64,000 bases of DNA, from contig NZ_JAMLIW010000010.1 of assembly GCF_023953935.1 (NCBI RefSeq), forward strand, positions 45,021 to 109,020, given 5' to 3'. Of the stretch, positions 46,162-59,246 are shown piece by piece. Each line of letters opens with the position of its first letter. Within the stretch, counting starts at the first letter, position 1. The translations under genes and the position numbers were made by a program. This stretch comes from Thermomonas sp. (lineage in GTDB: Bacteria > Pseudomonadota > Gammaproteobacteria > Xanthomonadales > Xanthomonadaceae). The notes under the pieces are model-generated. The model saw only the letters and a list, made by a program, of their open reading frames with translations. It did no database searches and was not told the origin of the DNA.

Positions 46162-46292
46162 CCGGGATTCTCCGGGTCGGGGACTCCAGCCTGCGCGTGC
46201 CGGAGGAACCGGGATTTGATCGGCGTCAATTCCCGAATTGAATCGACGACCGATGCCGGGGACTGCGACGGTTGATGGGCGATAATCCCCCC

Positions 46293-47948
46293 ATGGAGTC
46301 GAACTGCAACATCGCCGCGGCGCTGCCGAAGCTGGCGCTTGAAAGCCCGGAGCGGGCGGCGATCCGTTGCCCCGGCCGCAGCGGCGACTATGGCGAGTCG
46401 CTGAGCTATGCCCAGCTCGATGCGCGCAGTGATGCGATCGCGGCGGGCTTGGCCGGGCGCGGGGTGGCCCGCGGCAGCCGCTGCGTGGTGATGGTGCGGC
46501 CCACCCCGGACTTCTTCCTGCTGATGTTCGCGCTGTTCAAGCTGGGCGCTGTGCCGGTATTGATCGATCCTGGCATCGACAAGCGCGCGCTCAGGCAATG
46601 CCTGGCACAGGCGCAGCCGTCCGCCTTCATCGGCGTCCCGCTGGCCCTGCTGGCCAAGGCGCTGCTGGGCTGGGCGCCGATGACGACCCTGCGCGTGACG
46701 ACCGGACGCGTCGCCCTGTTGTCGGATGCGACCCTGGCGCAGGTCGAGGCGGCGGGACGTGGCGCCGGCCCGCAGCTGGCGGACACCGCGCCCGATGACG
46801 TGGCGGCAATCCTGTTCACCAGCGGCAGCACCGGCGTGCCCAAGGGCGTGGTCTACCGGCACCGGCATTTCGTTGCCCAGGTCGAGATGCTGCGCAGCGC
46901 ATTCGGGATCGAAGCCGGTGGCGTGGATTTCCCGACCTTCCCGCCGTTTGCCCTGTTCGATCCCGCGCTGGGCCTGACCAGCGTGATCCCGGACATGGAC
47001 CCCACCCGCCCGGCCAAGGCCAAGCCGCGCAAGCTGCACGCAGCGATCACCCGCTTCAAGGCGGATCAACTGTTCGGCTCGCCGGCGCTGATGCGGGTGC
47101 TGGCCGAATACGGCGAGGCGCTGCCGACCCTGCGTCGGGTGACCAGCGCCGGCGCGCCGGTGCCGCCGGAGATCGTGCAGCGGATGCTGGAACTGTTGCC
47201 GCCGGAGGCGCGATTCTGGACGCCGTATGGCGCCACCGAATGCCTGCCGGTGGCGGTGATCGAAGGCCGCGAACTGCTGGGCCTGCGCGCGCGCACCGAA
47301 ACCGGCGCCGGCACCTGCGTCGGCCATCCGGTGGCCGGGAACACGGTGCGGATCATTGCCATCGATGACAATGCCATTGCCGACTGGGATGACGCGCTGT
47401 CGGTACCCAAGGGCGAGGTCGGTGAAATTGTCGTCGCCGGCCCCAGCGCAACCGATGCGTATTTCGGACGCGAAGACCAGACCGCGCTGGCCAAGATCCG
47501 CGAACCCCTGCCCGATGGCAGCGAGCGCAGCGTGCACCGGATGGGCGATCTGGGTTGGTTCGATGAAGACGGGCGGCTGTGGTTCTGCGGGCGCAAGTCG
47601 CAGCGGGTGACTGTCGATGCCTTGACGACCCTGTACACCGAACAGGTCGAGCCGGTGTTCAACACCCACCCGGCGCTGGCGCGCACGGCGCTGGTCGGGG
47701 TAGGGCCGCGCGGCGCGCAGACGGCGGTGCTGTGCTTCGAACTCAAGCCGGGCAGCGGCGCCGACCCGAAGGAAATCGCCGACGAACTGCGGCATATTGC
47801 CGATGGCTTCGTGCATACCGCCAAGGTGGATGTGTTCCTGCATCATCCAAAGCCGTTCCCGGTGGACATTCGCCACAACGCCAAGATCGGACGTGAACAG
47901 CTGGCGCGCTGGGCGGCGGCGCGGATGGCGGCGGCGGGCGGCGGCTGA
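46293..47948 (+). CDS. oleC: OleC, beta-lactone synthetase
   Basis: A 551-residue ANL-superfamily adenylating enzyme that converts the beta-hydroxy acid made by OleD to a beta-lactone with ATP. The P-loop is LFTSGSTGVPKG (~residue 180), then FPPFALFDPALG, the core motif TPYGATE and the hinge/C-domain MGDLGWFDEDGRLWFCGRKS. The start MESNCNIAAALPKLA matches Xanthomonas OleC (ATG 46293; two upstream in-frame starts are weaker). oleD follows after 3 bp, so oleC-oleD are translationally linked. Confidence 0.95.
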   Translation: MESNCNIAAALPKLALESPERAAIRCPGRSGDYGESLSYAQLDARSDAIAAGLAGRGVARGSRCVVMVRPTPDFFLLMFALFKLGAVPVLIDPGIDKRALRQCLAQAQPSAFIGVPLALLAKALLGWAPMTTLRVTTGRVALLSDATLAQVEAAGRGAGPQLADTAPDDVAAILFTSGSTGVPKGVVYRHRHFVAQVEMLRSAFGIEAGGVDFPTFPPFALFDPALGLTSVIPDMDPTRPAKAKPRKLHAAITRFKADQLFGSPALMRVLAEYGEALPTLRRVTSAGAPVPPEIVQRMLELLPPEARFWTPYGATECLPVAVIEGRELLGLRARTETGAGTCVGHPVAGNTVRIIAIDDNAIADWDDALSVPKGEVGEIVVAGPSATDAYFGREDQTALAKIREPLPDGSERSVHRMGDLGWFDEDGRLWFCGRKSQRVTVDALTTLYTEQVEPVFNTHPALARTALVGVGPRGAQTAVLCFELKPGSGADPKEIADELRHIADGFVHTAKVDVFLHHPKPFPVDIRHNAKIGREQLARWAAARMAAAGGG

Positions 47949-47951
47949 GCG

Positions 47952-48950
47952 ATGCAGGTCCTGGTGACCGGCGGCGGCGGTTTCCTCGGGCTGGCGCTGT
48001 GCCGTGCACTGCGCGAACGGGGTCATGCCGTCACCAGCTTCAGCCGCAGCGCGCATGCCGCGCTCGAAACAATGGGTGTGCCGCAATTGCGGGGCGATCT
48101 GGCCGACCGCACGGCGGTGCTGCGGGCGCTGGACGGCGGCTTCGATGCGGTGCTCCACAACGCCGCCAAGGCCGGGGTCTGGGGGCGCCGCGCCGACTTC
48201 CACGCGGCCAATGTCCTTGGCACCGAAAACGTGCTGGCGGCCTGTCGTGCCCACGGCATCGGCAAGCTGGTCTACACCTCCACGCCCAGCGTGACGCATC
48301 GCGCCACGCGCCCGGTCGAAGGGGTGGGTGCCGATGAGGTGCCTTACGGCGAGCCGTTCAAGTCGCACTATGCCGCCACCAAGGCGATTGCCGAACGCGC
48401 GGTGCTGGCGGCCAACGACGATCGGTTGGCCACGGTGGCGCTGCGCCCGCGCCTGATCTGGGGGCCGAACGACACCCAGATCCTGCCGCGGCTGGTGGCG
48501 CGTGCGCGCAGCGGCCGGGTGCGGCTGGTCGGCGGCGGCGACAACCTCGTCGATACCACCTATCTCGACAATGCCGCGCAGGCCCACGTCGATGCGCTGG
48601 AGCACCTGCACGCCGGCGCCGCCTGCGCCGGCCAGGCCTACTTCATCAGCAACGGCGAGCCCTGGCCGCTGCGCGACGTGCTCAACGCCCTGCTGCGAGC
48701 GGCCGACGCGCCCGAGGTGCGCAAATCCATTTCCTTCCCGGCCGCTTACGCCATCGGCGCGGTGTGCGAGGCGCTGTGGACGCTGCTGCCGCTGCGCGAT
48801 GACCCGCCGCTGACGCGTTTTCTGGCCGAACAGCTGAGCACCCCGCACTGGTATTCGATGGCACCGGCGACCCGTGATTTCGGCTATCGGCCCCGGCTGA
48901 CGATGGCGCAGGGGCTGGCGCGATTGCGCGCCTCGCTGCACGCCGGCTGA
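47952..48950 (+). CDS. oleD: OleD, NAD(P)-dependent beta-keto acid reductase
   Basis: A 332-residue extended SDR reducing the OleA product to the beta-hydroxy acid. The Rossmann loop is [16 protein letters not shown]; the catalytic set is STPSV and [17 protein letters not shown] is also characteristic. It resembles 3-beta-HSD/sterol dehydrogenase-like SDRs, which OleD proteins are often called. It starts 3 bp after oleC. Confidence 0.95.
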
Positions 48951-49431: not shown

Positions 49432-50415
49432 ATGGCCGCAGGCCACGATCACGACGACACGCGGGAAGCCGGCGACGATACGCGGACCGCCGGCGCCAGC
49501 CATGTCCACGCCCACGCGCACGCTCACGCCCACAGCCACGTGCCGGCGGTGATCAAGCACGAGCGTCCGCTGTGGATAGCGTTCGGGCTGACCTTGGTGG
49601 TGTTGGGCGTGGAGCTGGCGGGTGCGCTGCTCAGCAACAGCCTCGCCCTGCTGTCGGACGCGGCGCACATGCTGACCGACGTGGCGGCGCTGGGGGTGTC
49701 GCTGTTTGCGGTGCGCCTGAGCCGACGCCCGGCCGACGCGCGGCGCAGCTACGGCTATGCGCGGATGGAGGCGATCGGTGCGCTGGTCAACGGCGGCCTG
49801 CTGTTCCTCGTCGCCGGCTACATCCTGTGGGAGGCGGTGCAGCGGTTTCGCAGCCCGGAGGCGGTGGCGTCGACCTTCATGCTGGTGGTCGCATGCGTGG
49901 GCCTGGTGGCCAATCTGGTGTCGATGAAACTGCTGGCGGCCGGCTCCGGCGAGAGCCTGAACGTCAAGGGCGCCTACCTCGAAGTCTGGAGCGACATGCT
50001 CGGCTCGCTGGGGGTGATCGTGGCCGCCCTGTTGATCCATTTCACCGGCTGGTCCTGGGTCGATCCGGTGGTCGCGGTGCTGCTGGGGCTGTGGGTGCTG
50101 CCGCGCACCTGGATCCTGCTGCGGCAGGCGATCCACGTGCTGATGCAGGGCGTTCCGGCCGGGCTGGACGTCGAGGCCGTGCGCGCGGCCATGCGGGCGG
50201 TGCCCGGCGTGGGCGCGGTGCACGATCTGCACGTGTGGGCGCTGGGTTCGCGGGAGCCGATCCTGACCGCCCATGTGGTGCTGTGCGAAGGCCACGGTGA
50301 GCCGGATGCCGTGCGTGCGCAGGTGGCACAGGTGCTGCACGAAAAATTCGACATTGGCCACGCCACCTTGCAGGTTGAAGCCCGCCACTGCGGTGGTGAG
50401 GGTGTGCATGACTGA
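49432..50415 (+). CDS. CzcD-type cation diffusion facilitator
   Basis: A 327-residue CDF exporter of Zn, Co or Cd out of the cytoplasm. A His-rich N-terminus (HVHAHAHAHAHSH) precedes six membrane helices. The helix-2 metal site is SDAAHMLTD; the helix-5 segment is GAYLEVWSDMLGS, which matches CzcD of Cupriavidus. The C-terminal cytoplasmic domain has HDLHVWALGSREPILTAHVVL. Its stop codon overlaps the next gene (ATGACTGA). Confidence 0.92.
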   Translation: MAAGHDHDDTREAGDDTRTAGASHVHAHAHAHAHSHVPAVIKHERPLWIAFGLTLVVLGVELAGALLSNSLALLSDAAHMLTDVAALGVSLFAVRLSRRPADARRSYGYARMEAIGALVNGGLLFLVAGYILWEAVQRFRSPEAVASTFMLVVACVGLVANLVSMKLLAAGSGESLNVKGAYLEVWSDMLGSLGVIVAALLIHFTGWSWVDPVVAVLLGLWVLPRTWILLRQAIHVLMQGVPAGLDVEAVRAAMRAVPGVGAVHDLHVWALGSREPILTAHVVLCEGHGEPDAVRAQVAQVLHEKFDIGHATLQVEARHCGGEGVHD

Positions 50416-51115
50416 GCCGGCGCTGGAGGTGCTGTACGCCGACGCCGCGCTGGCGGTGGTCGACAAGCCGGCCGGGCTGATGGTGCACGACAGCGCGCTG
50501 GCGCGCGGCGAAACCGAGTTTGCCGCCGATCGCCTGCGCGCACAGTTCGGCAAACCCATTTTCCTCGTGCACCGGCTGGATCGTGCCACCAGCGGCTGCC
50601 TGCTGTTGGCCTTCGACCGCGATACTGCGTCCGCGCTGGGCAAGGTGCTGATGATGGGCGGCGTCGAAAAGGACTATTGGGCGGTCTGCCGCGGCTGGCC
50701 GGCGGAGCGTGCGTTCATCGTCGACCACGCGCTGGACGGCGGCCCCGGCAAGCCGCTGAAGAAACCGGCGCGCACCGAGTTCGAGGTGCTGGCCAGCTGC
50801 GAGTTGGCGCTGGCGTCCGCCGCCTTTGCCACTTCGCGCTACGCGTGGTTGCGCGCCAGCCCGCAAACCGGCCGCTTTCGCCAGATCCGCCGCCATCTCA
50901 AGCATGTCTCGCACCACCTGATTGGTGATACCAGCCACGGCGATGGTCGCCACAACCGCACATTCCGGATGCTGGGCGTGCACCGGATGCTGCTGCACGC
51001 GCGCCGACTGGCGTTCGCGCACCCCCACACCGACGCGCTCATCGAAGCAGTGGCGCCGGTGGATGCGGAATTTGCCAGAGCGCTGGCGCTGTTCGAGCAA
51101 ACGGCAACTGGCTGA
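50408..51115 (+). CDS. RluA-family pseudouridine synthase (TruC-like)
   Basis: A 235-residue pseudouridine synthase. The catalytic Asp is in VHRLDRATSG at ~residue 60; the N-terminal VLYADAALAVVDKPAGL, and RHLKHVSHHLIGD with GVHRMLLHARRLAF complete the RluA-family pattern. Length and sequence fit TruC (tRNA U65) best. It overlaps the CDF gene by 8 bp. Confidence 0.85.
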   Translation: MTEPALEVLYADAALAVVDKPAGLMVHDSALARGETEFAADRLRAQFGKPIFLVHRLDRATSGCLLLAFDRDTASALGKVLMMGGVEKDYWAVCRGWPAERAFIVDHALDGGPGKPLKKPARTEFEVLASCELALASAAFATSRYAWLRASPQTGRFRQIRRHLKHVSHHLIGDTSHGDGRHNRTFRMLGVHRMLLHARRLAFAHPHTDALIEAVAPVDAEFARALALFEQTATG

Positions 51116-51179: not shown

Positions 51180-51293
51180 GATGATGCCCGCGAAAGCGGG
51201 CCGCGTCTCACAAACGAATGTTTGTCCAATTCATGGACTTTGCCATTCAAGTGATTGATGTCCATGGATCCCCGCTTTCGCGGGGATGACGGT
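51180..51293. repeat. REP pair in the truC-arfB spacer
   Basis: The ~210-bp spacer holds two palindromic copies: GCCCGCGAAAGCGGGC (51185-51200) and GGATCCCCGCTTTCGCGGGG (51266-51285). They are in opposite orientation, as at 21046-21248, and share the CCCGCGMAAGCGGG core. Confidence 0.8.
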
Positions 51294-51324
51294 ATTTGTT
51301 CCGCATTGCCTTAAGATTCTTCCC

Positions 51325-51738
51325 ATGCGCATTGGCCGAATCACCCTCGATGAAACCGAGCTCGAAGAACGCTTCGTGCGGGCGTCGGGGCCGGGTGGGC
51401 AGAACGTCAACAAGGTGGCCACGGCGGTCGAGCTGCGTTTCGACGTGGCGCGCTCGCCGTCGCTGCCGGAATCCGTGCGCGCGCGTCTGCTGGCCAGGCG
51501 CGACCGGCGCCTGACCGCCGAGGGCGTGCTGGTGATTTCCGCGCAGCGTTTTCGCACCCAGGAGCGCAACCGCGAGGATGCGCGCGCGCGGTTGGCGACC
51601 TTCATCGAAAGCGGCCTGCACGTGCCCAAACCGCGCATCGCCACCAAACCGTCGCGCGCCGCGAAGGAGCGCCGCTTGGGGGACAAGCGTGAACGTGCGA
51701 CGATCAAGCAGGGGCGCAGCGGACGGAGCTGGGATTGA
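51325..51738 (+). CDS. arfB: ArfB, alternative ribosome-rescue peptidyl-tRNA hydrolase
   Basis: A 137-residue GGQ-domain protein (YaeJ). The catalytic GGQ lies in ASGPGGQNVNKV at residues ~23-34, and RFRTQERNREDA follows. The basic C-terminal tail (KPSRAAKERRLGDKRERATIKQGRSG) is the tail that inserts into the empty mRNA channel of stalled ribosomes. ATG 51325 gives the family start. The next gene overlaps by 4 bp (TTGA). Confidence 0.95.
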   Translation: MRIGRITLDETELEERFVRASGPGGQNVNKVATAVELRFDVARSPSLPESVRARLLARRDRRLTAEGVLVISAQRFRTQERNREDARARLATFIESGLHVPKPRIATKPSRAAKERRLGDKRERATIKQGRSGRSWD

Positions 51739-52355
51739 GCCAGGCGCAGGGGCAAGACCGGGTGCCAAGCTTGCCTGCGGCGGTGCCGCGGATGCCGCGC
51801 AACGCGTTTGCGCAATGGCTGGCGCGTTCGCTCCTGCGCAGCGGCGGGTGGACGCTGGTGGGCGAGTTTCCCGACCTGCCCAAGGCGGTGCTGATTGCCG
51901 CGCCGCACTCGTCCAACTGGGACGGCATCTGGGGATTTGCGGCCAAGGTTGCGGTCGGCATCCGCCTGTCGGTGCTGGGCAAGCACAGCCTGTTCCGGAT
52001 TCCGGTGCTGGCGCAGGTGCTGCGCTGGCAGGGCGTGATCCCGGTGGACCGCGCCATGCCGCTGGGCGTGATCGAGCAGGCGATCGCCACGATCCGCGCC
52101 CATGAGGCGATCTGGTACGCCATCGCGCCGGAAGGCACGCGTCGGCGCGTGCCGCACTGGAAGACCGGGTTCTGGAAGATTGCCCACGGCGCCGGCGTGC
52201 CGGTGGTGCCGGCGGCGTTCGATTACCAGAACCGGCGCATCGTCATCGGTGCGGCGCTGGCCTTGACCGACGACATGGAGGCCGACATCGCCCGCATCCA
52301 GCGCTGGTATGCGCCCTTCCACGGTCGCAACCACGACGTGCGGCAGCCGGACTGA
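51735..52355 (+). CDS. acyltransferase of the PlsC (1-acylglycerol-3-phosphate) superfamily
   Basis: A ~206-residue acyltransferase with the HX4D motif as HSSNWDG at ~57-63 and AIAPEGTRRRV at ~130. Short members with HSSNWDG-type motifs are grouped as putative acyltransferases near, but not the same as, AGPAT. There is no strong membrane anchor. The TTG start at 51735 overlaps the arfB stop; ATG at MPRNAFAQW (20 codons on) is an alternative. Confidence 0.85.
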   Translation: MSQAQGQDRVPSLPAAVPRMPRNAFAQWLARSLLRSGGWTLVGEFPDLPKAVLIAAPHSSNWDGIWGFAAKVAVGIRLSVLGKHSLFRIPVLAQVLRWQGVIPVDRAMPLGVIEQAIATIRAHEAIWYAIAPEGTRRRVPHWKTGFWKIAHGAGVPVVPAAFDYQNRRIVIGAALALTDDMEADIARIQRWYAPFHGRNHDVRQPD

Positions 52356-52418: not shown

Positions 52419-55400
52419 TCACTGCAGCGGCGCGCCGCCGATCTTGTAGGTCAGCTGCAGGAAGAAGCTGCGGCCGAAGCTGTCGAACCACGAGGTGTCG
52501 TAGTAGGGATAGTTCGCCCAGGTCGGGTCCTTCGGCGGCATCTGGTCGAACAGGTTGTTGACCGTCAGCGCCACCCGGAAATGGTCGTTGATGTCATAGC
52601 GGGCGGCGGCGTTGAAGCGCCAGGTCGAGCGCGTCCAGGCGTCGTTGGCATAGTTGGCGACCTTGCCGAGGTAGTTGCCGAACAGGCTGGCGCCCCACGG
52701 TCCGTTGTCCCAGTTCACGCCGAGGTTGCCCTTGCTGCGCGGCAGGGTGGTGTCGCTGAAGGTGACATCGAGCATGTCCTCGGTGGGGTCGCCCGGGTAG
52801 ATGACGCGGGTGTGGCGGCGGGTCCAGTTGTAGTTGCCGCTGAAGCGGAACGTGCCGATGCTGGCGGTTTCCAGCCGGTAGTTGGCGGTCAGGTCGATGC
52901 CGGAAGTCTGCTCGCGGGCGATGTTGATCGGCCCGAACAACACGCTGGTGATTTCACCGGCGCCGTTGCGGACAACCCGCGCCATCGCATCGACGCAGGT
53001 CGGGGTGGTGATGTCGACCGGCGCGCCGGTGTCGGTCACGCCCAGCCGGCAGTCGGCGTCGGTGATCAGCAGCAGGTCACGGCTCTGGGTCTGGACCTGG
53101 TTGGCGATGTGGATGTTGTAGTAGTCGATGGCGAGGTCGAAATTCGGGGTCGGCGACCACACGAAGCCGACGGTGCCGGAGCGGCTGGTCTCCACCTCCA
53201 GGTTGCGGTTGCCGGAATAGACGTCGCGGGTGGCGATGTCCCAGCTGCCGTCATCCCAGCATTCGTCGTTGCTCAGGCTCGGATCGTCGGTGCGGCACTG
53301 GAAATAGTCGGTGGAGGTCCGCCGGTAGTAGTCGTTGCCGGCGAACAGATAGTGCATGTCGGGGGCGCGGAAGCCGGTGCCGTAGGAGCCGCGCAGCAGC
53401 AAGCTGTCGACCGGGCGCCATTCCATGCCGACGCTCCAGGTGAACTTGCCGGGGTTCTTGCCGCCGTAGCTGTACTGGTCGTAGCGGCCGGCGAGACTGG
53501 CCTGGAGGGAGGAGAACAGGGGCAGGCGCAGCTCGCCGGCCACGTCCCAGTGGTCGCGGTTGCCGTGGCCATCACCGTAGCGCGGGCCGTAGTAGGCGGT
53601 ATCGGTCAATGCCAGCGGATCGGGGTTGATGCGGTAGGACTGCGAGCCGTATTCGATCACGCCGGCAAAGCCGACGTCGCCGGCCGGCAGGGTGAACAGG
53701 GCGGGGGTGTTGACCATGAAACTGAGGTTGTCGTTCTGCGCCTTGGGATGGAACACCGACATGGCGCCGATGGCGGCGAACTGGTCGGGAGTGAGCGGAG
53801 TGAACAGCTTGTTCGGGTCCGGCGCATAGATCGCATAACCGTCGGCGTCGTAGCCCAGGCGCGGGCCGAGGAACCAGGTGTTGGCGGCCTCGGCATTGAT
53901 GCGCGGCATGCCCACGCTGGCGCTGTACTGGGAATGGTTCCAGGACAGCTCCCAATCCCAGTTCTCGCCGATCATGCCCTTGAAGCCGGTGGTCAGCGCA
54001 AAGGTCTTCTCGACCGTGGTGTTCATGCGGTTGCGCAGGCCGCCGACTTCCTCCGGGGTGAACTCCCGGGTCCAGACTTCGTAGTGGCCGGTATTGGCGT
54101 TGTAGAACATGCCGTCGTTGCTGTCGGTGGCATTGGGGTCCTGGAACTGCCAGCCCATGTGGTCACTGTTGACGTCGTTGCCGTTGGTGCCGGTCAGCAG
54201 GCGCACCGTCTGCCGGCCGGCCTGCACGTCGGCGAACCAGGACAGGGTGCCGGAGAAGCGATATTCGAACGCGCCGTAGAAATTGACGCCCTTGCGTTCG
54301 TTCTGGATCGTCCGGTTGGCGATCGCGCGGGTACTGCCGCAATAGGGTTCACCCCAGCGGTCGAAGGCCAGTTCGGTGGTGCCCTGGTTCAGCCCCGCCA
54401 GTGCCGCGCAGTTGTCGGCCGGGGCGATGTTGATGTCGTCGTCCCAGTCGTAGATCTGCGCGGTCAGGCGCGGCAGGCGGCGGCGCGCGGTCGGGGCGTC
54501 GAGGGTGGAATCCTGGATGTTGCGCTGGAAGCCCCAGAGCGGGCGCTTGTCCTGCAATTCCAGACCGATCAGGCCGGTAAAGTTGCCGCGCTCGAAGCCG
54601 GTGGTCAGGGTCAGGTCATGGGACTGGCCGCCGCCGTGGCTGGTGTCGCCGAAGCGGTAGTCAATGGTGGTGCCGTCGGCGGTCTTTTTCAGGATGAAGT
54701 TGATCACCCCGGCCATCGCGTCCGAGCCGTAGACCGCCGATGCACTGCCGGTCAGCACTTCGATGCGGTCGATCATCCCCAGCGGGATGTTGCCGATGTC
54801 GGTGAAGTTGCTCTTGCCGCCCAGCGGCAGCGGAAAGTCGGCGACCCGGCGCCCGTTGATCAGCACCAGGGTGTGGTTGGGACCGATGCCGCGCAGGTCG
54901 ACCGCCTGCGCGCCGGGGGTGGACTGCGCGCCGGTGGTGTTCTGCTGGCCCTGCACGCTGCCGCTGTTCTGGCTGAGCGAGCGCAGCACTTCGGGGACCG
55001 AGGTGAAGCCGGCGGCCTGGATCTGCTCGGAGGTAACCACCGTGATCGGGGCCGGGCCTTCCACCTGCGCACGCGGAATGCGGGAGCCGGTCACCTGCAC
55101 CGTCTCCAGTTCGGTGACGGGACCTTCGGACTGGGCCTGGGGTGGACGTGCGGCGGGCGCGGTGCGCGCGGGTGCGGCCGGAGAGCTGGCGGCTGGCACG
55201 ATCAGCACCGCCCCCGAGGCATCGTGCTGGGCGCGAAAACCACTGCCCGCCAGCAGCGCGTCGAGCGCCTGCGGCGAAGCAGCCTGGCCGCGCAGGCCAT
55301 TGCTGTGGGCGCCGCGCAGCTGGTCGGCGCGATAGATCAGCTGGGTGCCGGTCTGGCTGGCATAGGCCGCCAGCGCCGCGGCCAGATCGCCGGCCGGGAC

Positions 55401-55493
55401 GTTGATGCGGGTGGCGGTTTGCGCCTGTGCGGCAAGGGCGGCGGAGCAGGCCAGCGCCAGCACCAGTCGGCGGAGTGATCGGGACGCGAGCAT
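52419..55493 (-). CDS. TonB-dependent receptor with N-terminal STN signalling domain
   Basis: A 1024-residue outer-membrane receptor. Signal peptide (LVLALACSAALAAQAQ), STN domain at ~28-100 (INVPAGDLAAALAAYASQTG), Pro/Ala linker, then plug domain ~125-260 (ETVQVTGSRIPR, VDLRGIGPNHTLVLINGRRV, GSDAMAGVINFILKK) and a large barrel with LRGSYGTGFRAPD and NNLFD. It ends LQLTYKIGGAPLQ, a few residues beyond the usual terminal aromatic. The STN domain and the upstream sigma/FecR pair are the parts of a FecA-type surface-signalling system. The ligand is unknown; the divergent cyanophycinase fusion suggests a peptide or polymer-derived substrate. Confidence 0.95.
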   Translation of the reverse strand: MLASRSLRRLVLALACSAALAAQAQTATRINVPAGDLAAALAAYASQTGTQLIYRADQLRGAHSNGLRGQAASPQALDALLAGSGFRAQHDASGAVLIVPAASSPAAPARTAPAARPPQAQSEGPVTELETVQVTGSRIPRAQVEGPAPITVVTSEQIQAAGFTSVPEVLRSLSQNSGSVQGQQNTTGAQSTPGAQAVDLRGIGPNHTLVLINGRRVADFPLPLGGKSNFTDIGNIPLGMIDRIEVLTGSASAVYGSDAMAGVINFILKKTADGTTIDYRFGDTSHGGGQSHDLTLTTGFERGNFTGLIGLELQDKRPLWGFQRNIQDSTLDAPTARRRLPRLTAQIYDWDDDINIAPADNCAALAGLNQGTTELAFDRWGEPYCGSTRAIANRTIQNERKGVNFYGAFEYRFSGTLSWFADVQAGRQTVRLLTGTNGNDVNSDHMGWQFQDPNATDSNDGMFYNANTGHYEVWTREFTPEEVGGLRNRMNTTVEKTFALTTGFKGMIGENWDWELSWNHSQYSASVGMPRINAEAANTWFLGPRLGYDADGYAIYAPDPNKLFTPLTPDQFAAIGAMSVFHPKAQNDNLSFMVNTPALFTLPAGDVGFAGVIEYGSQSYRINPDPLALTDTAYYGPRYGDGHGNRDHWDVAGELRLPLFSSLQASLAGRYDQYSYGGKNPGKFTWSVGMEWRPVDSLLLRGSYGTGFRAPDMHYLFAGNDYYRRTSTDYFQCRTDDPSLSNDECWDDGSWDIATRDVYSGNRNLEVETSRSGTVGFVWSPTPNFDLAIDYYNIHIANQVQTQSRDLLLITDADCRLGVTDTGAPVDITTPTCVDAMARVVRNGAGEITSVLFGPINIAREQTSGIDLTANYRLETASIGTFRFSGNYNWTRRHTRVIYPGDPTEDMLDVTFSDTTLPRSKGNLGVNWDNGPWGASLFGNYLGKVANYANDAWTRSTWRFNAAARYDINDHFRVALTVNNLFDQMPPKDPTWANYPYYDTSWFDSFGRSFFLQLTYKIGGAPLQ

Positions 55494-55575
55494 TGTGGTT
55501 TCCCCGGTAGGCGCGCGCTGCGCCGTTCAGCGTTCATGACGAACGGGTGCGGAAAATCCCCCAGTCGAGGTGAAA

Positions 55576-56616
55576 TCAGCGCGAATGCAGGACGATGCGG
55601 TCGGCGCTGGCTTCGGCGCGGACCGGGAAACCGGCTTCGAGCAGGCGCACGAAACCATCTTCGTTGTCCCAGCGGAAACTGCCGCCGATCCGCAGCGCAG
55701 CCGCGGCGTCGTCGGCCACCACCAGCTTGCGGGCGTTGTAGCGGTTGAACTCCGCGGCCACCTCGGACAGCGGCGCATCGCGGAACGCCAGCATCCCGCT
55801 GGGCCAATCGAGCAGATCCTGGGCCTGCGCGAGCGCCAGGCTGCGCACCAGCACGCCGCCTCCGCGCACCAGGGCCACGCTGCCGGCCGGCAGCAGCAGC
55901 GCCGGATGCGCGGACGGGCCGGGTGCGGTGGATTCCAGGCGGACCGTGCCTTCGGTGACGACCACCCGCAGGTTCGCAGCGTCACGGCGTACGCCATAGC
56001 GGGTGCCCACCGCGATGGCGCGGTAGCCGGCGGCGGCAACCGTGAACGGCCGGCCGGGATCCTTGGCGACTTCGAAGATGGCTTCGCCGCGGACCAAGGT
56101 GATGTCGCGGGCGTGCGGCTGCAGGCGCACCTCGATCCGGCTGTCGCTGGACAGGATGGCGTGCGAGCCATCGGCCAGGGTGAAATTGCGCACTTGGCCG
56201 AGGCTGGAGGCGTAGACGCTGGCGGCGACCGGTGGGGCCGGCCGCAGGGTCCAGCCAATCAGCAGCGCGCAAGCGGCCAGCGCGGCGGCGGCGGTGAAGT
56301 GGAGCCAGCGGCGGCGCGAATCGCGTCTTGGCCGTGGCCGCGGTTGCAGGGCGGCCAGCATCCGGGCGCGGCGGTCGTCGCCCGGGGCCGGTGCGGGGCG
56401 CACGGTGGCACCTTCCGGACGACCCGCGGCCAGCGCTCGCAGCCGTCCGGCTTCGGACCACGCCGCCTGCAGTCGCAGCCAAGCCACCTTGTGGGCGCTG
56501 TCCTGCGCGAGCCAGGCGTCCAGTGCGGCCCGCTCCGCATCCGTGCAGGCGCCTGCGTCGCAGCGTGCCAGCCAATCGGCGGCGGTTTGTTCAATGTCGC
56601 GGCTGGACGGGCGCAT
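55576..56616 (-). CDS. FecR-family anti-sigma/regulator protein
   Basis: A 346-residue inner-membrane signal transducer. The cytoplasmic N-terminal DUF4880 domain (ADWLARCDAGACTDAERAALDAWL) is followed by one transmembrane helix (~95-115, AAAALAACALLIGWTL), the periplasmic FecR domain (~145-235, RNFTLADGSHAILSSDS, ITLVRGEAIFEVAKD, VGTRYGVR) and a C-terminal STN-like segment (PLSEVAAEFNRYN). It should pass the receptor signal to the sigma factor. It starts 6 bp after the sigma stop and precedes the receptor by 82 bp, giving the order sigma-fecR-receptor. Confidence 0.94.
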   Translation of the reverse strand: MRPSSRDIEQTAADWLARCDAGACTDAERAALDAWLAQDSAHKVAWLRLQAAWSEAGRLRALAAGRPEGATVRPAPAPGDDRRARMLAALQPRPRPRRDSRRRWLHFTAAAALAACALLIGWTLRPAPPVAASVYASSLGQVRNFTLADGSHAILSSDSRIEVRLQPHARDITLVRGEAIFEVAKDPGRPFTVAAAGYRAIAVGTRYGVRRDAANLRVVVTEGTVRLESTAPGPSAHPALLLPAGSVALVRGGGVLVRSLALAQAQDLLDWPSGMLAFRDAPLSEVAAEFNRYNARKLVVADDAAAALRIGGSFRWDNEDGFVRLLEAGFPVRAEASADRIVLHSR

Positions 56617-56622
56617 CGGCCT

Positions 56623-57198
56623 TCAGTCCTGCGCGCCGGTTGCGGACGCATTGTCGCGGCGCGGCGGTTTCGGCACGGCCGCAGGCACCGCGCCGGTATA
56701 CAGCGCGTCGGCGAGCAGGCGCATGCCCTTGGCGATTTGCTTCTCCACGGTCTTCTCGCTGATCCCCAGCCGCAAGGCCACTTCCTTCTGCGAAAGATCC
56801 TCCACCCGACGCAACCACACCACCTCGCGGCAGCGCGCCGGCAATCGGTCGAGTGCGTCGGAAAGCCGATGCAGGGTCTGCCGACCGCCACTCCAGCGTT
56901 CGGGCGTCACTTCGTCCATCAAGACGTGCGAAGGCTCGAAATCACCCATCGGTTCGATCGAAACCACCTTGTTGCGCCGAATCCGGTCGGTCATCAGGTG
57001 GCGTGCGCTGGCGAACAGGAAGGCCTTCGGCTGGGCGGGCAGGGCCTTGCCGGCGGCTTCGTAGAGGCGCACGTAGAGCTCCTGGCGCAGGTCGTGGATC
57101 TCGTCCCGGTGCGGCCAGTGGCGCTGCAGGTAGCGCAGCAAGGCCTCCTCGTGGATCAGGATTTCCTGGACGAACCACTGGTCGAGCGGGCTGCGCAC
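56623..57198 (-). CDS. ECF sigma factor (FecI-like)
   Basis: A 191-residue ECF sigma factor. Region 2 has HDLRQELYVRLYEA and RHLMTDRIRRNKV; region 4 has DALDRLPARCREVVWLRRVEDLSQKEVALRLGISEKTVEKQ, a helix-turn-helix. The GTG at 57198 gives a start just before the first helix (QWFVQEILIHEEALLRYL); no ATG is near. The first gene of the sigma-fecR-receptor operon, it would be freed by FecR when the receptor binds ligand. It diverges from the cyanophycinase fusion by ~110 bp. Confidence 0.93.
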   Translation of the reverse strand: MRSPLDQWFVQEILIHEEALLRYLQRHWPHRDEIHDLRQELYVRLYEAAGKALPAQPKAFLFASARHLMTDRIRRNKVVSIEPMGDFEPSHVLMDEVTPERWSGGRQTLHRLSDALDRLPARCREVVWLRRVEDLSQKEVALRLGISEKTVEKQIAKGMRLLADALYTGAVPAAVPKPPRRDNASATGAQD

Positions 57199-57308
57199 CC
57201 GCGTACCATAGCCGAACGCAGGCGTGCTGCGCCGGGTTCGGCGGCGGTGGGGGATGTTCCACGTTGGCACGTCTACCGGGTGTGGCCTTTGATGGATGGA
57301 GTGCGAGG

Positions 57309-59246
57309 ATGAAGCAAGTTTCCTGCCGGGCAATCCTGTTGGCGGCATGGCTGGCACTGGCACTGCCGCTGTCCGCGCTGGCCGCCGACGTCGGCCACTT
57401 CGTGCTCGGCAACACCGCCGCCCGTACGCCGGGACCGGTGCAACCGGGCCTGCTGTTGATGGGCGGTGGCGATCGCAATGACGACGCCCTGCGCTGGTTC
57501 ATGCAGAAGGCGGGCAACGGCCACATCGTGATCCTGCGCGCCTCGCAGGGTGGCGAGATAGGCGAGGAGTTCTTCCATCGGATCGGCGGCATCGCGTCGG
57601 TCGAAACCTTCGTGTTCAAGGATCGCCAGGCCGCCAGCGACCCCCGCATCCTCAAGGCCCTGCAGCATGCCGACGGCATTTTCATCGCCGGCGGCGACCA
57701 GTCGCGTTACGTGCGCTACTGGCGCGGCACGCCCATTGCCCGCGCGCTGGATGCGCACGTGCGCGCCGGCAAGCCGCTGGGCGGCACCAGCGCCGGGCTG
57801 GCGATCCTCGGCGAATATCTGTATGGCGCGATGGACGGCGGCAGCCTGGTCAGCCCGGCCGCGCTGGCCGATCCGCTGGGTGACGCCAATACCATCGAAA
57901 CCGGTTTCCTCGACCTCGCCCTGCTCAAGGGCGTCGTCACCGATACCCACTTCAGCGAGCGGGCCAGGCTCGGCCGTCTGGTGGCCTTCCTCGCCAAGAG
58001 TGAAGACATGGCCGGCCGGGCGCTGATTGGGCTGGGCGTGGACGAGGATGCGGCAGTCGCGGTGGAAGGCGATGGCACCGGCCGCGTCTACGCGACGGCG
58101 GCAGGCGCGGGGGCGACGGTGGTGCGCGGCGGGTTTGCGGCCCGGCAGGCCGAAGAACGTCCGATGCACCTCGATCGCCTGGAAACCCTCGGCGCCGGCC
58201 GCGATTCGGTGCTGCACCTGCCGTCCGGCACCGTCGATCGCCCCAGCTTTACGCGCCGCTATGCCGTCCGCAACGGCGTGCTGGTGGCGCTGGATGCGCC
58301 GCTGCTGGTGATCCACGGCGGCGCCGGGGTCGAACCGGGTGATCTCAACCCGCAGCAGGAGGCCGACATCAAAGCCGCGTTGTCAGCCGCCCTGCGCGCC
58401 GGCTACGCCAAGCTGCAGGGCGGCGCGCCGGCGCTGGATGCCGTGACGGCCGCGATCACCGTGCTGGAGGACGATCCGCACTTCAACGCCGGGCGTGGCG
58501 CGGTGTTCACCCACGACGGCAGGAACGAGCTTGACACCTCGATCATGGACGGCGCGACCGGACGCGCCGGCGCGGCGGCCGGCCTGCATCGGGTCAGGAA
58601 TCCCATCCTGCTGGCGCGCGCGATTCTGGAACACTCCAACCACGTGATGATGGTGGGCGATGGCGCCGAAGCCTTTGCCCGCGAGCAGGGGATCACCTTG
58701 GTCGATCCGGCGTATTTCCGCACCGAATCGCGCTGGAGGGCGCTGCAGCGCGCCCTGCAGAAAGAAAAGCAGGCGCAGCTGGAGAAGCGACCGCTGGTGC
58801 TGCCCGGCCGCGCCTACTTCGGCACCGTCGGCGCGTTGGCACTGGACGCGAGCGGCAACCTCGCGGCGGGTACCTCGACTGGCGGCATGACCAACAAGCG
58901 CTATGGCCGGGTCGGCGATTCGCCGATCATCGGCGCCGGCACCTGGGCCGACGCCCGCTGCGCCGTCTCCGGCACCGGCTGGGGCGAGTTCTACATCCGC
59001 GCTGCCGCCGCCCACGAAATCTGCGCCCGCGTGCGGCTGGCCGGCGTGCCCCTGCCCAATGCCGCCAATGACGTGATCAACGTCGACATCCCGCGCGCCG
59101 GCGGCGACGGCGGGGCGATCGCGCTGGGTGCCGACGGCGTCGTCGCGTTCCCGTTCAACAGCGGCGGCATGTACCGCGGCTGGATCGGCAGTGACGGCGT
59201 GCCGCACGTGGCGATCTACAAGACCGACGCGCTCGAGATGCCGTGA
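57309..59246 (+). CDS. exported cyanophycinase-isoaspartyl peptidase fusion
   Basis: A 645-residue two-enzyme fusion with a signal peptide (ILLAAWLALALPLSALAA). Residues ~45-290 are an S51-type cyanophycinase: LLMGGGDRNDD, FIAGGDQSRYVRYW, nucleophile Ser161 in GGTSAGLAI, and TDTHFSERARLGRLVAFL. Residues ~325-645 are a plant-type asparaginase/isoaspartyl peptidase (Ntn): VIHGGAG, HFNAGRGAVFT, nucleophile Thr506 in GTVGALALD, AAGTSTGGMTNKRYGRVGDSPIIGAG. The first half would cut cyanophycin to beta-Asp-Arg dipeptides and the second would split them to Asp and Arg. It is divergent from a receptor/signalling operon. No cyanophycin synthetase is in the window. Other isoaspartyl substrates are possible. 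Confidence 0.93.
   Translation: MKQVSCRAILLAAWLALALPLSALAADVGHFVLGNTAARTPGPVQPGLLLMGGGDRNDDALRWFMQKAGNGHIVILRASQGGEIGEEFFHRIGGIASVETFVFKDRQAASDPRILKALQHADGIFIAGGDQSRYVRYWRGTPIARALDAHVRAGKPLGGTSAGLAILGEYLYGAMDGGSLVSPAALADPLGDANTIETGFLDLALLKGVVTDTHFSERARLGRLVAFLAKSEDMAGRALIGLGVDEDAAVAVEGDGTGRVYATAAGAGATVVRGGFAARQAEERPMHLDRLETLGAGRDSVLHLPSGTVDRPSFTRRYAVRNGVLVALDAPLLVIHGGAGVEPGDLNPQQEADIKAALSAALRAGYAKLQGGAPALDAVTAAITVLEDDPHFNAGRGAVFTHDGRNELDTSIMDGATGRAGAAAGLHRVRNPILLARAILEHSNHVMMVGDGAEAFAREQGITLVDPAYFRTESRWRALQRALQKEKQAQLEKRPLVLPGRAYFGTVGALALDASGNLAAGTSTGGMTNKRYGRVGDSPIIGAGTWADARCAVSGTGWGEFYIRAAAAHEICARVRLAGVPLPNAANDVINVDIPRAGGDGGAIALGADGVVAFPFNSGGMYRGWIGSDGVPHVAIYKTDALEMP

Follow-up and report, generated by a model that had tools for sequence, protein, structure and literature searches.

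What does a signalling system of a type known mainly from iron uptake do back to back with an exported peptidase fusion? The locus that raises this question lies at positions 52,419 to 59,246 of a 64,000-nt stretch of DNA from Thermomonas sp. (contig NZ_JAMLIW010000010.1; the whole stretch is called the window in the following). Here, genes for a TonB-dependent receptor, a FecR-type anti-sigma regulator and an extracytoplasmic function (ECF) sigma factor run leftward, and a gene combining a cyanophycinase-type peptidase S51 domain with an isoaspartyl peptidase domain (called IaaA below) runs rightward. Comparison with related loci strongly supports the gene set, its conservation, a shared upstream element, the coupling of the receptor's STN domain with FecR and the sigma factor, and intact active sites in both enzyme domains. 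We consider it probable that these parts form, as a whole, a positive-feedback scavenging circuit, with environmental cyanophycin as its most likely substrate. The principal features are, from left to right:

52419..55493, minus strand: TonB-dependent transducer of 1024 amino acids with signal peptide, STN, plug and beta-barrel (Pfam)
55538..55562, minus strand: candidate ECF-sigma promoter of the receptor gene, GGGGGATTTTCCGCACCCGTTCGTC, strict form, in the fecR-receptor gap
55576..56616, minus strand: FecR-type anti-sigma regulator (DUF4880 and FecR) with a hydrophobic stretch near residues 105–124
56623..57198, minus strand: ECF sigma factor (Sigma70_r4_2 and Sigma70_r2 by Pfam; the open frame extends to 57363)
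57199..57308, no strand: divergent intergenic region of 110 bp, the sigma-fusion gap
57249..57273, plus strand: candidate ECF-sigma promoter of the fusion gene, GGGGGATGTTCCACGTTGGCACGTC, relaxed form, with CACGTC replacing TTCGTC
57309..59246, plus strand: exported-type fusion of 645 amino acids with a signal peptide (~1–25), an S51 domain (~40–280) and an isoaspartyl peptidase/plant-type asparaginase domain (331–639)

The initial annotation, made from the letters alone, had described this four-gene layout and a shared divergent region of about 110 bp, and both descriptions held. The length of the gap follows from the sigma factor start, most likely the GTG at 57196–57198 judging by a few orthologs. 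The protein components of a cell-surface signalling (CSS) system were recognised by Pfam and TIGR02937, including the STN-bearing receptor that belongs to the definition of such systems (PMC11637429; papers given by PMC number are cited here and below from parts of their text). The receptor reached 33.1 bits for STN (cut-off 28.4), 79.1 bits for Plug and 121.3 bits for TonB_dep_Rec_b-barrel, the regulator 63.7 bits for FecR and 42 bits for DUF4880, and the sigma factor 78.5 bits for TIGR02937 (cut-off 42.9). Within the FecR-type protein, the hydropathy window at 105/106 (1.67) lies just under another one at 239 (1.72), and the transmembrane assignment is therefore based on position. The receptor scored under the curated cut-off of all 25 NCBIfam models that it matched, including those for siderophore, haem and B12 receptors; for TIGR01783, the TonB-siderophore model, its 71.8 bits fall short of the cut-off (223.5). 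The fusion matched Peptidase_S51 with 44.8 bits (cut-off 23.9) and Asparaginase_2 with 357.6 bits (cut-off 27), and its N-terminus is a signal-peptide-like hydrophobic stretch by hydropathy, similar to the start of the orthologs listed. In the whole 2.59-Mb source genome we detected one FecR domain, nine TonB plug domains (E ≤ 0.001) and one Asparaginase_2 domain; the only FecR and the only IaaA-type enzyme of this genome thus both lie at the locus.

The initial annotation had proposed looking for this neighbourhood in relatives, where it turned out to be widely conserved. Searching 395 genomes of the family gave some match to the fusion in 375 of them and 100 full-length fusions, the one in the window included (counted by eye among the matches listed). 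Matches ranked below these mostly cover the IaaA half, again among those listed, and two further fusions (G352 and G323) are interrupted by contig ends. A divergent sigma-fecR pair accompanies 96 of the 100 fusions, a receptor match likewise 96, and all three genes 93. The receptor is missing in L033, L096 and L101, where the available stretches are short and at contig ends. Among the best 80 of 374 loci found in named records, the fusion occurs in Thermomonas, Pseudoxanthomonas, Luteimonas, Lysobacter, Vulcaniibacterium, Arenimonas, Xanthomonas and Dokdonella, and S51 relatives occur in Novosphingobium, Sphingobium and Sphingomonas. Two Novosphingobium replicons recorded as plasmids, NZ_CP017076.1 (1.76 Mb) and NZ_CP141945.1 (1.82 Mb), carry the fusion with no gene annotated under the match, which is compatible with horizontal transfer; among the best 15 of 92 plasmid records, the match in the other 13 is confined to the IaaA half or hardly extends beyond it. 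On the left side of the locus, the genes at 50273–51115, 51286–51738 and 51735–52355 recur in many relatives, which we read as synteny, and the right-hand genes do not.

Is the receptor's signalling domain tied to the signalling genes? For this comparison, 201 loci were reduced to 190 with an S51 match (L132 and ten IaaA-only loci were dropped) and to 130 that are unique by identical S51 sequence. Receptors and partners were scanned with hidden Markov models (HMMs) built from 88–100 of the loci themselves. A receptor was found in 122 of the 130 unique loci. STN and sigma/FecR were both present in 106 of these and both absent in 14, leaving two exceptions: L042, in which sigma/FecR accompany a receptor that is spread over two frames, and L131, in which STN was flagged by the locus-built model and not confirmed by Pfam. 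Pfam detected no STN in the nine receptors tested among the 15 without sigma/FecR, and it did detect STN in L244, a locus with sigma/FecR from another family of the order. In L092, the receptor has kept the signal peptide of its relatives and the STN stretch is gone. The comparison strongly supports that STN receptors are coupled to FecR and the sigma factor and that, where sigma/fecR is missing, the receptor lacks STN. On an S51 tree of 82 rows (L127, L128 and L132 left out), at least five changes each are needed for the signalling genes, STN and the fusion. All four supported independent pairs agree in signalling genes and STN (p = 0.125, the lowest value reachable with four pairs). For this tree the STN state was set by hand to absent in L131 and to present in L042 and L247, whose receptor lies off the contig and was assumed from its near twin L259.

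If the sigma factor served both sides of the locus, a common promoter element should be visible. We used the strict motif GGGGGA-N12/13-TTCGTC, which was defined after inspecting the upstream sequences, so that the genome-wide check is not blind. Of 101 fusion genes 72 have it in their upstream window, and of 96 receptor genes 61. Together these make up all 133 strict copies of the 101 loci; the remaining 2.97 Mb contain none on either strand. Given this confinement, the sigma factor probably drives both the receptor and the fusion gene. With the relaxed form of the motif, the loci contain 457 matches, of which 141 fall outside both upstream windows. The expectation of the initial annotation that the two divergent promoters share a sigma-type motif was thus borne out for the family; in the window itself, the receptor copy is strict and the fusion copy departs from it. 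At the level of whole genomes, 66 of the 100 fusion genomes contain 118 strict copies (the split was counted by eye): 80 at the locus, in 52 of the 66 genomes, 37 scattered and one at a contig end (G307), compared with nine copies of a reversed-pattern control. G262 and G034, which have no sigma/FecR, contain no strict copy. That this element is used by the sigma factor of this locus is what we infer from these patterns. A regulon search in the window's own genome with one mismatch allowed was too unspecific to be of use, with 133 hits against 63 for the control.

Upstream of the sigma gene, the picture is different. In 54 of 96 loci, an element of the GCTATGGT/GCTAGAGT type precedes the sigma start by 14–16 bases (any match: 55 loci; expected 0.003 per stretch), and we read it as a putative housekeeping-type −10 element. 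This suggests that sigma and fecR are made at a basal level and that the receptor and the enzyme are sigma-driven, the same division as between fecIR and fecA (PMC9249621). Across the 96 gaps, the best match to a Fur box had 8 mismatches of 19, no better than shuffled sequences.

What would the exported enzyme degrade? Both degradative domains named by the initial annotation have kept their catalytic residues. The S51 domain aligns to the cyanophycinase structures 3EN0, 7UQV and 7UQW with E-values of about 1e-14. Its Ser161, His214 and Glu246 correspond to the catalytic Ser132, His174 and Glu201 of CphB, and Gln131, Asp212, Arg218, Arg220 and Arg223 to the pocket residues Gln101, Asp172, Arg178, Arg180 and Arg183 (residue roles in CphB and CphE: PMC3235067); all are kept in 99–100 of 100 orthologs. 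At the position of CphB Gln173 lies Thr213, a Thr in 98 and a Ser in two of the 100; the equivalent residue of CphEal, an extracellular enzyme, is Thr223 (PMC3235067). The surrounding motif reads DTHF in 120 of the 130 unique loci and DSHF in nine, and is missing in L128. By this match of active-site residues to extracellular CphE, cyanophycin would be the best-supported substrate, not a shown one. In the IaaA half, all seven residues checked are kept in 100 of 100 orthologs, including the nucleophile Thr506, the residue at which the beta-subunit chains of solved IaaA enzymes begin. We take the roles of these residues to be those of EcAIII. This half reached 298.9 bits for the beta-aspartyl-peptidase equivalog PRK10226 (NF007589), below the cut-off of 567.

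We further compared the family with CphE-like proteins, identified by residue match and not by name. Nineteen were found in 398 genomes of another gammaproteobacterial family, all with DTHFSERGRQGR and with Thr at the Gln173 position; the 16 with a clear start have 418–422 amino acids and the catalytic residues at Ser 168–172, His 221–225 and Glu 248–252. They share 33–38% identity over 149–169 residues with the S51 domain studied here. In an unrooted S51 tree of 40 rows, they fall on the same side of the split from CphB as the window's family (support 95/83). Each of the three CphE-like loci inspected (L321, L322 and L324) holds a second S51-type protein. L321 also encodes an AstE/AspA-type protein and L324, according to Pfam, an OprD porin, a solute-binding protein and an ABC permease. 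By analogy, these loci look like they might do the same job with a porin replacing the receptor.

Which parts of the locus belong to its core? In the 130 unique loci, the two enzyme domains are fused in 115, IaaA is a separate adjoining gene in nine, and S51 occurs alone in six. The receptor next to the unfused pairs is of the same type. Signalling genes accompany it in L244, L256, L258 and L259 (in the contig-cut L247, sigma/FecR are present) and are absent from L241–L243 and L245. S51 alone is divergent from an STN-less receptor in the sphingomonad loci L204, L206, L208, L210 and L212. The same holds for two more gammaproteobacterial families (L277 and L320). No receptor was recognised in L201, L202 and L211. 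Because unfused and S51-alone loci keep the same receptor type, the stable unit consists of the receptor and the exported S51 enzyme; the presence of an isoaspartyl peptidase and of the signalling module varies from locus to locus. Clustering the neighbours of 19 loci (sphingomonad, g30 and unfused) gave no convincing extra partner gene; one family of five loci is an open reading frame (ORF) overlapping S51. As a side observation, receptor paralogs with 33–35% identity lie near exported-type prolyl-oligopeptidase-family (S9) enzymes in at least three of eight paralog loci (L276, L279 and L280), and those in L275 and L276 lie near a TPR-sulfotransferase.

The receptor itself has a history of its own. 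Compared with the receptor in the window, 45 of 114 receptors have at least 60% identity and the other 69 have 45–54%, and clustering at 60% gave five classes with at least 13 changes on the S51 tree. The pair L068 and L070 illustrates how this comes about. Their fusions (626/646), sigma factors (195/198), FecR proteins (328/353) and the receptor's signal peptide, STN and linker (138/138) are nearly identical, in contrast to the plug (123/165, 75%) and the barrel (345/703, 49%), and the DNA is 93% identical on both flanks of the replaced stretch. Close relatives have thus exchanged the plug-barrel part as one cassette and kept sensor, sigma factor and enzyme almost unchanged. Exchange of the barrel was also seen in L073, L053/L060, L065 and L064. 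It fits a single substrate with changing surface selection, possibly from phages or bacteriocins, or differing forms of the ligand.

The initial annotation had noted that no cphA is visible and concluded that the substrate would come from outside. Within the window this is correct, but the same genome carries cphB, cphA and a cphA-like gene in a row elsewhere (G000:C12, ~69–75 kb; L261:3025-8762), which removes the argument. The genomic CphB reaches 266 bits for TIGR02069, has a DQHF motif and no evident signal peptide; CphA reaches 1135 bits for TIGR02068 (cut-off 850) and the adjoining CphA-like protein 320 bits, below the cut-off. Lysobacter capsici AZ78 also carries cphA-cphB (PMC4742617). 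The exported enzyme still should not reach cytoplasmic granules. Together with the distribution of cphA among fusion genomes given below, this indicates that the exported fusion is a supplement to the cytoplasmic cycle, found in genomes that have this cycle and in genomes that do not.

From these observations, the following circuit can be proposed. The receptor would bind an extracellular ligand, and a relay through STN and FecR would free the ECF sigma factor. The freed sigma factor would then transcribe the receptor gene and the fusion gene from the shared GGGGGA-N12/13-TTCGTC element, closing a positive feedback. The enzyme may act in the periplasm on chains or oligomers imported by the receptor: the S51 domain would cut the polymer backbone into beta-aspartyl dipeptides, and the isoaspartyl peptidase domain would split these into free amino acids, which general transporters could take up. 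If the polymer is cyanophycin from the environment, released for example by lysis of neighbouring or related cells, the products would be beta-Asp-Arg and finally Asp and Arg. The receptor's ligand, the substrate and the periplasmic location are the parts of this scheme that we infer.

Several observations weigh against it. No strict element precedes 29 of the 101 fusion genes and 35 of the 96 receptor genes, the copy before the fusion in the window reads CACGTC in place of TTCGTC, and G289, G349 and G089 have sigma/FecR and no strict copy in their genomes. Scattered copies outnumber those of the control, so that other targets or promoters of related sigma factors may exist. Four of the 100 fusions lack sigma/FecR: in L092 and L131 the receptor is directly divergent, L123 has a receptor remnant only (counted as an STN-less receptor) and in L127 nothing was recognised within 4.3 kb upstream. 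No ligand is tied to the receptor, and no transporter recurs among the neighbours clustered for 19 loci. The S51 part reached 103–106 bits for the cyanophycinase equivalog TIGR02069 (cut-off 126.6) and is not assigned to it, although two of four CphE-like proteins (116.8, 124.6, 138 and 130 bits) also fall below this value. In the 40-row tree, the window's family forms its own clade (100/99) on a long branch, with a warning of long-branch attraction. The Thr at the Gln173 position is no proof of export either, as Thr or Ser at this position is not exclusive to exported enzymes: it occurs in three of ten cyanophycinases above the cut-off that have no evident signal peptide by a rough look at hydrophobicity. 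An IaaA enzyme from a cyanophycin cluster is promiscuous for beta-aspartyl dipeptides (PMC10206079), and cphA scored above the cut-off in 31 of the 66 fusion genomes and gave no match above it in the other 35, so that the locus occurs with and without it.

Some of these points would suit the same circuit working on a substrate other than cyanophycin, such as isoaspartyl or Asp-rich peptides of damaged proteins or another beta-linked peptide, with a diverged S51 domain and a generalist second domain. We regard this as possible and clearly less probable than cyanophycin. The separate clade on its long branch, the score below the cyanophycinase cut-off, the promiscuity of IaaA (PMC10206079) and the S9 peptidases near receptor paralogs speak for it. 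However, all published cyanophycin-pocket residues are kept except Gln173, whose Thr is that of characterised CphE, and the presence of S51 without IaaA beside this type of receptor points to the S51 step as the central one. Slightly less probable still is an enzyme acting outside the cell after type II secretion, as proposed for CphE, with a receptor that imports and senses the released beta-aspartyl dipeptides or oligomers and not the polymer. For CphEal, a Sec signal peptide and activity in supernatants are described (PMC3235067), in line with the signal-peptide-like start of the fusion and its listed orthologs. Dipeptides, on the other hand, should fit through porins, and the CphE-like locus L324 has an OprD porin and no receptor; moreover, the IaaA domain would presumably split the dipeptide before uptake.

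The remaining two explanations start from known uses of similar genes. As the signalling parts are the same as in FecIRA, the locus could serve iron or siderophore uptake like most FecI-FecR-FecA systems, with the hydrolase freeing iron from an Asp/Arg-containing siderophore. We consider this improbable in view of the receptor's score below the siderophore model's cut-off, the lack of a Fur box better than shuffles in the 96 gaps and the S51 peptidase as constant partner, with no search aimed at iron genes in the flanks. Recycling of a self-made peptide, comparable to the clusters with lasso-peptide isopeptidases, would follow a similar overall gene logic (PMC9266682). It appears the least plausible of all, since the known isopeptidase is described in biosynthetic clusters (PMC9266682) and the neighbour clustering of 19 loci gave no convincing partner, with no search aimed at lasso precursor or cyclase genes. 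The scavenging circuit for cyanophycin therefore remains our preferred explanation.

How much of this was known before? In Citromicrobium sp. JLT1363, Tang et al. (2012) reported a TonB receptor gene beside that of a cyanophycinase and suggested cyanophycin as a substrate of the receptor (PMC3400609); the available text of this paper contains neither "isoaspartyl" nor "FecR" and describes neither a fusion nor a signalling module. The adjacency of receptor and cyanophycinase is thus known since 2012, and the fusion and its probable signalling control are added here. In the open-access literature, as far as its texts were available, there was no report of an S51-IaaA fusion or its signalling control, and the available text of Sharon and Schmeing (2023) contains no "fusion", "fused", "TonB" or "Xanthomon" (PMC10206079). 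The cyanophycin-scavenging loci discussed there, citing Ben Hania et al. and Flammeovirga, likewise keep cyanophycinase-type and isoaspartyl-dipeptidase activities with a transport protein, whereas here the enzymes are one exported chain and the transporter is a signalling TonB receptor. Such loci are defined for genomes without cphA, unlike the genome studied here. CphE of Pseudomonas alcaligenes and P. anguilliseptica is also an exported S51 enzyme with the same active-site set (Gln, Ser, Asp, Thr, His, three Arg and Glu), but the window's family forms a separate clade, CphE has no IaaA domain, and L324 has an OprD porin instead of the receptor. With the FecA-FecR-FecI-type systems Fox, Pup and Fec (PMC11637429, PMC9249621), the locus shares the STN receptor, the FecR anti-sigma regulator, the ECF sigma factor and a sigma-type motif before the receptor gene; it differs in the second motif before an exported degradative enzyme, the absence of a Fur box and the peptidase partner. 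Lasso-peptide isopeptidase clusters also unite a TonB receptor, sigma/anti-sigma factors and a hydrolase in one locus, in a biosynthetic context and with an isopeptidase as hydrolase (PMC9266682).

Tentatively, the locus may represent a CSS system for a storage polymer and not for iron, with the receptor and a single exported two-step enzyme as its main and perhaps only targets. Exchange of the plug-barrel cassette would then let outer-membrane recognition evolve apart from sensing and digestion. The high specificity of the partner enzyme makes the ligand guessable and testable and the locus a tractable non-iron case of CSS. If cyanophycin is the substrate, this would be a regulated TonB-linked scavenging route in Lysobacteraceae and sphingomonads, and the fusion a natural two-step enzyme turning the polymer into free amino acids. 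The barrel exchange offers a natural experiment on the drivers of receptor diversity.

Finally, the pattern GGGGGAW-N14-CGTC occurs three times in the window compared with 0.09 expected. The third copy (46267–46291), outside the locus, lies just upstream of a 558-amino-acid ORF in the region 46272–48950, on the other strand, and is probably a chance match. This ORF is followed by a gene whose product comes close to the 2-alkyl-3-oxoalkanoate reductase OleD (577.9 bits, cut-off 580).

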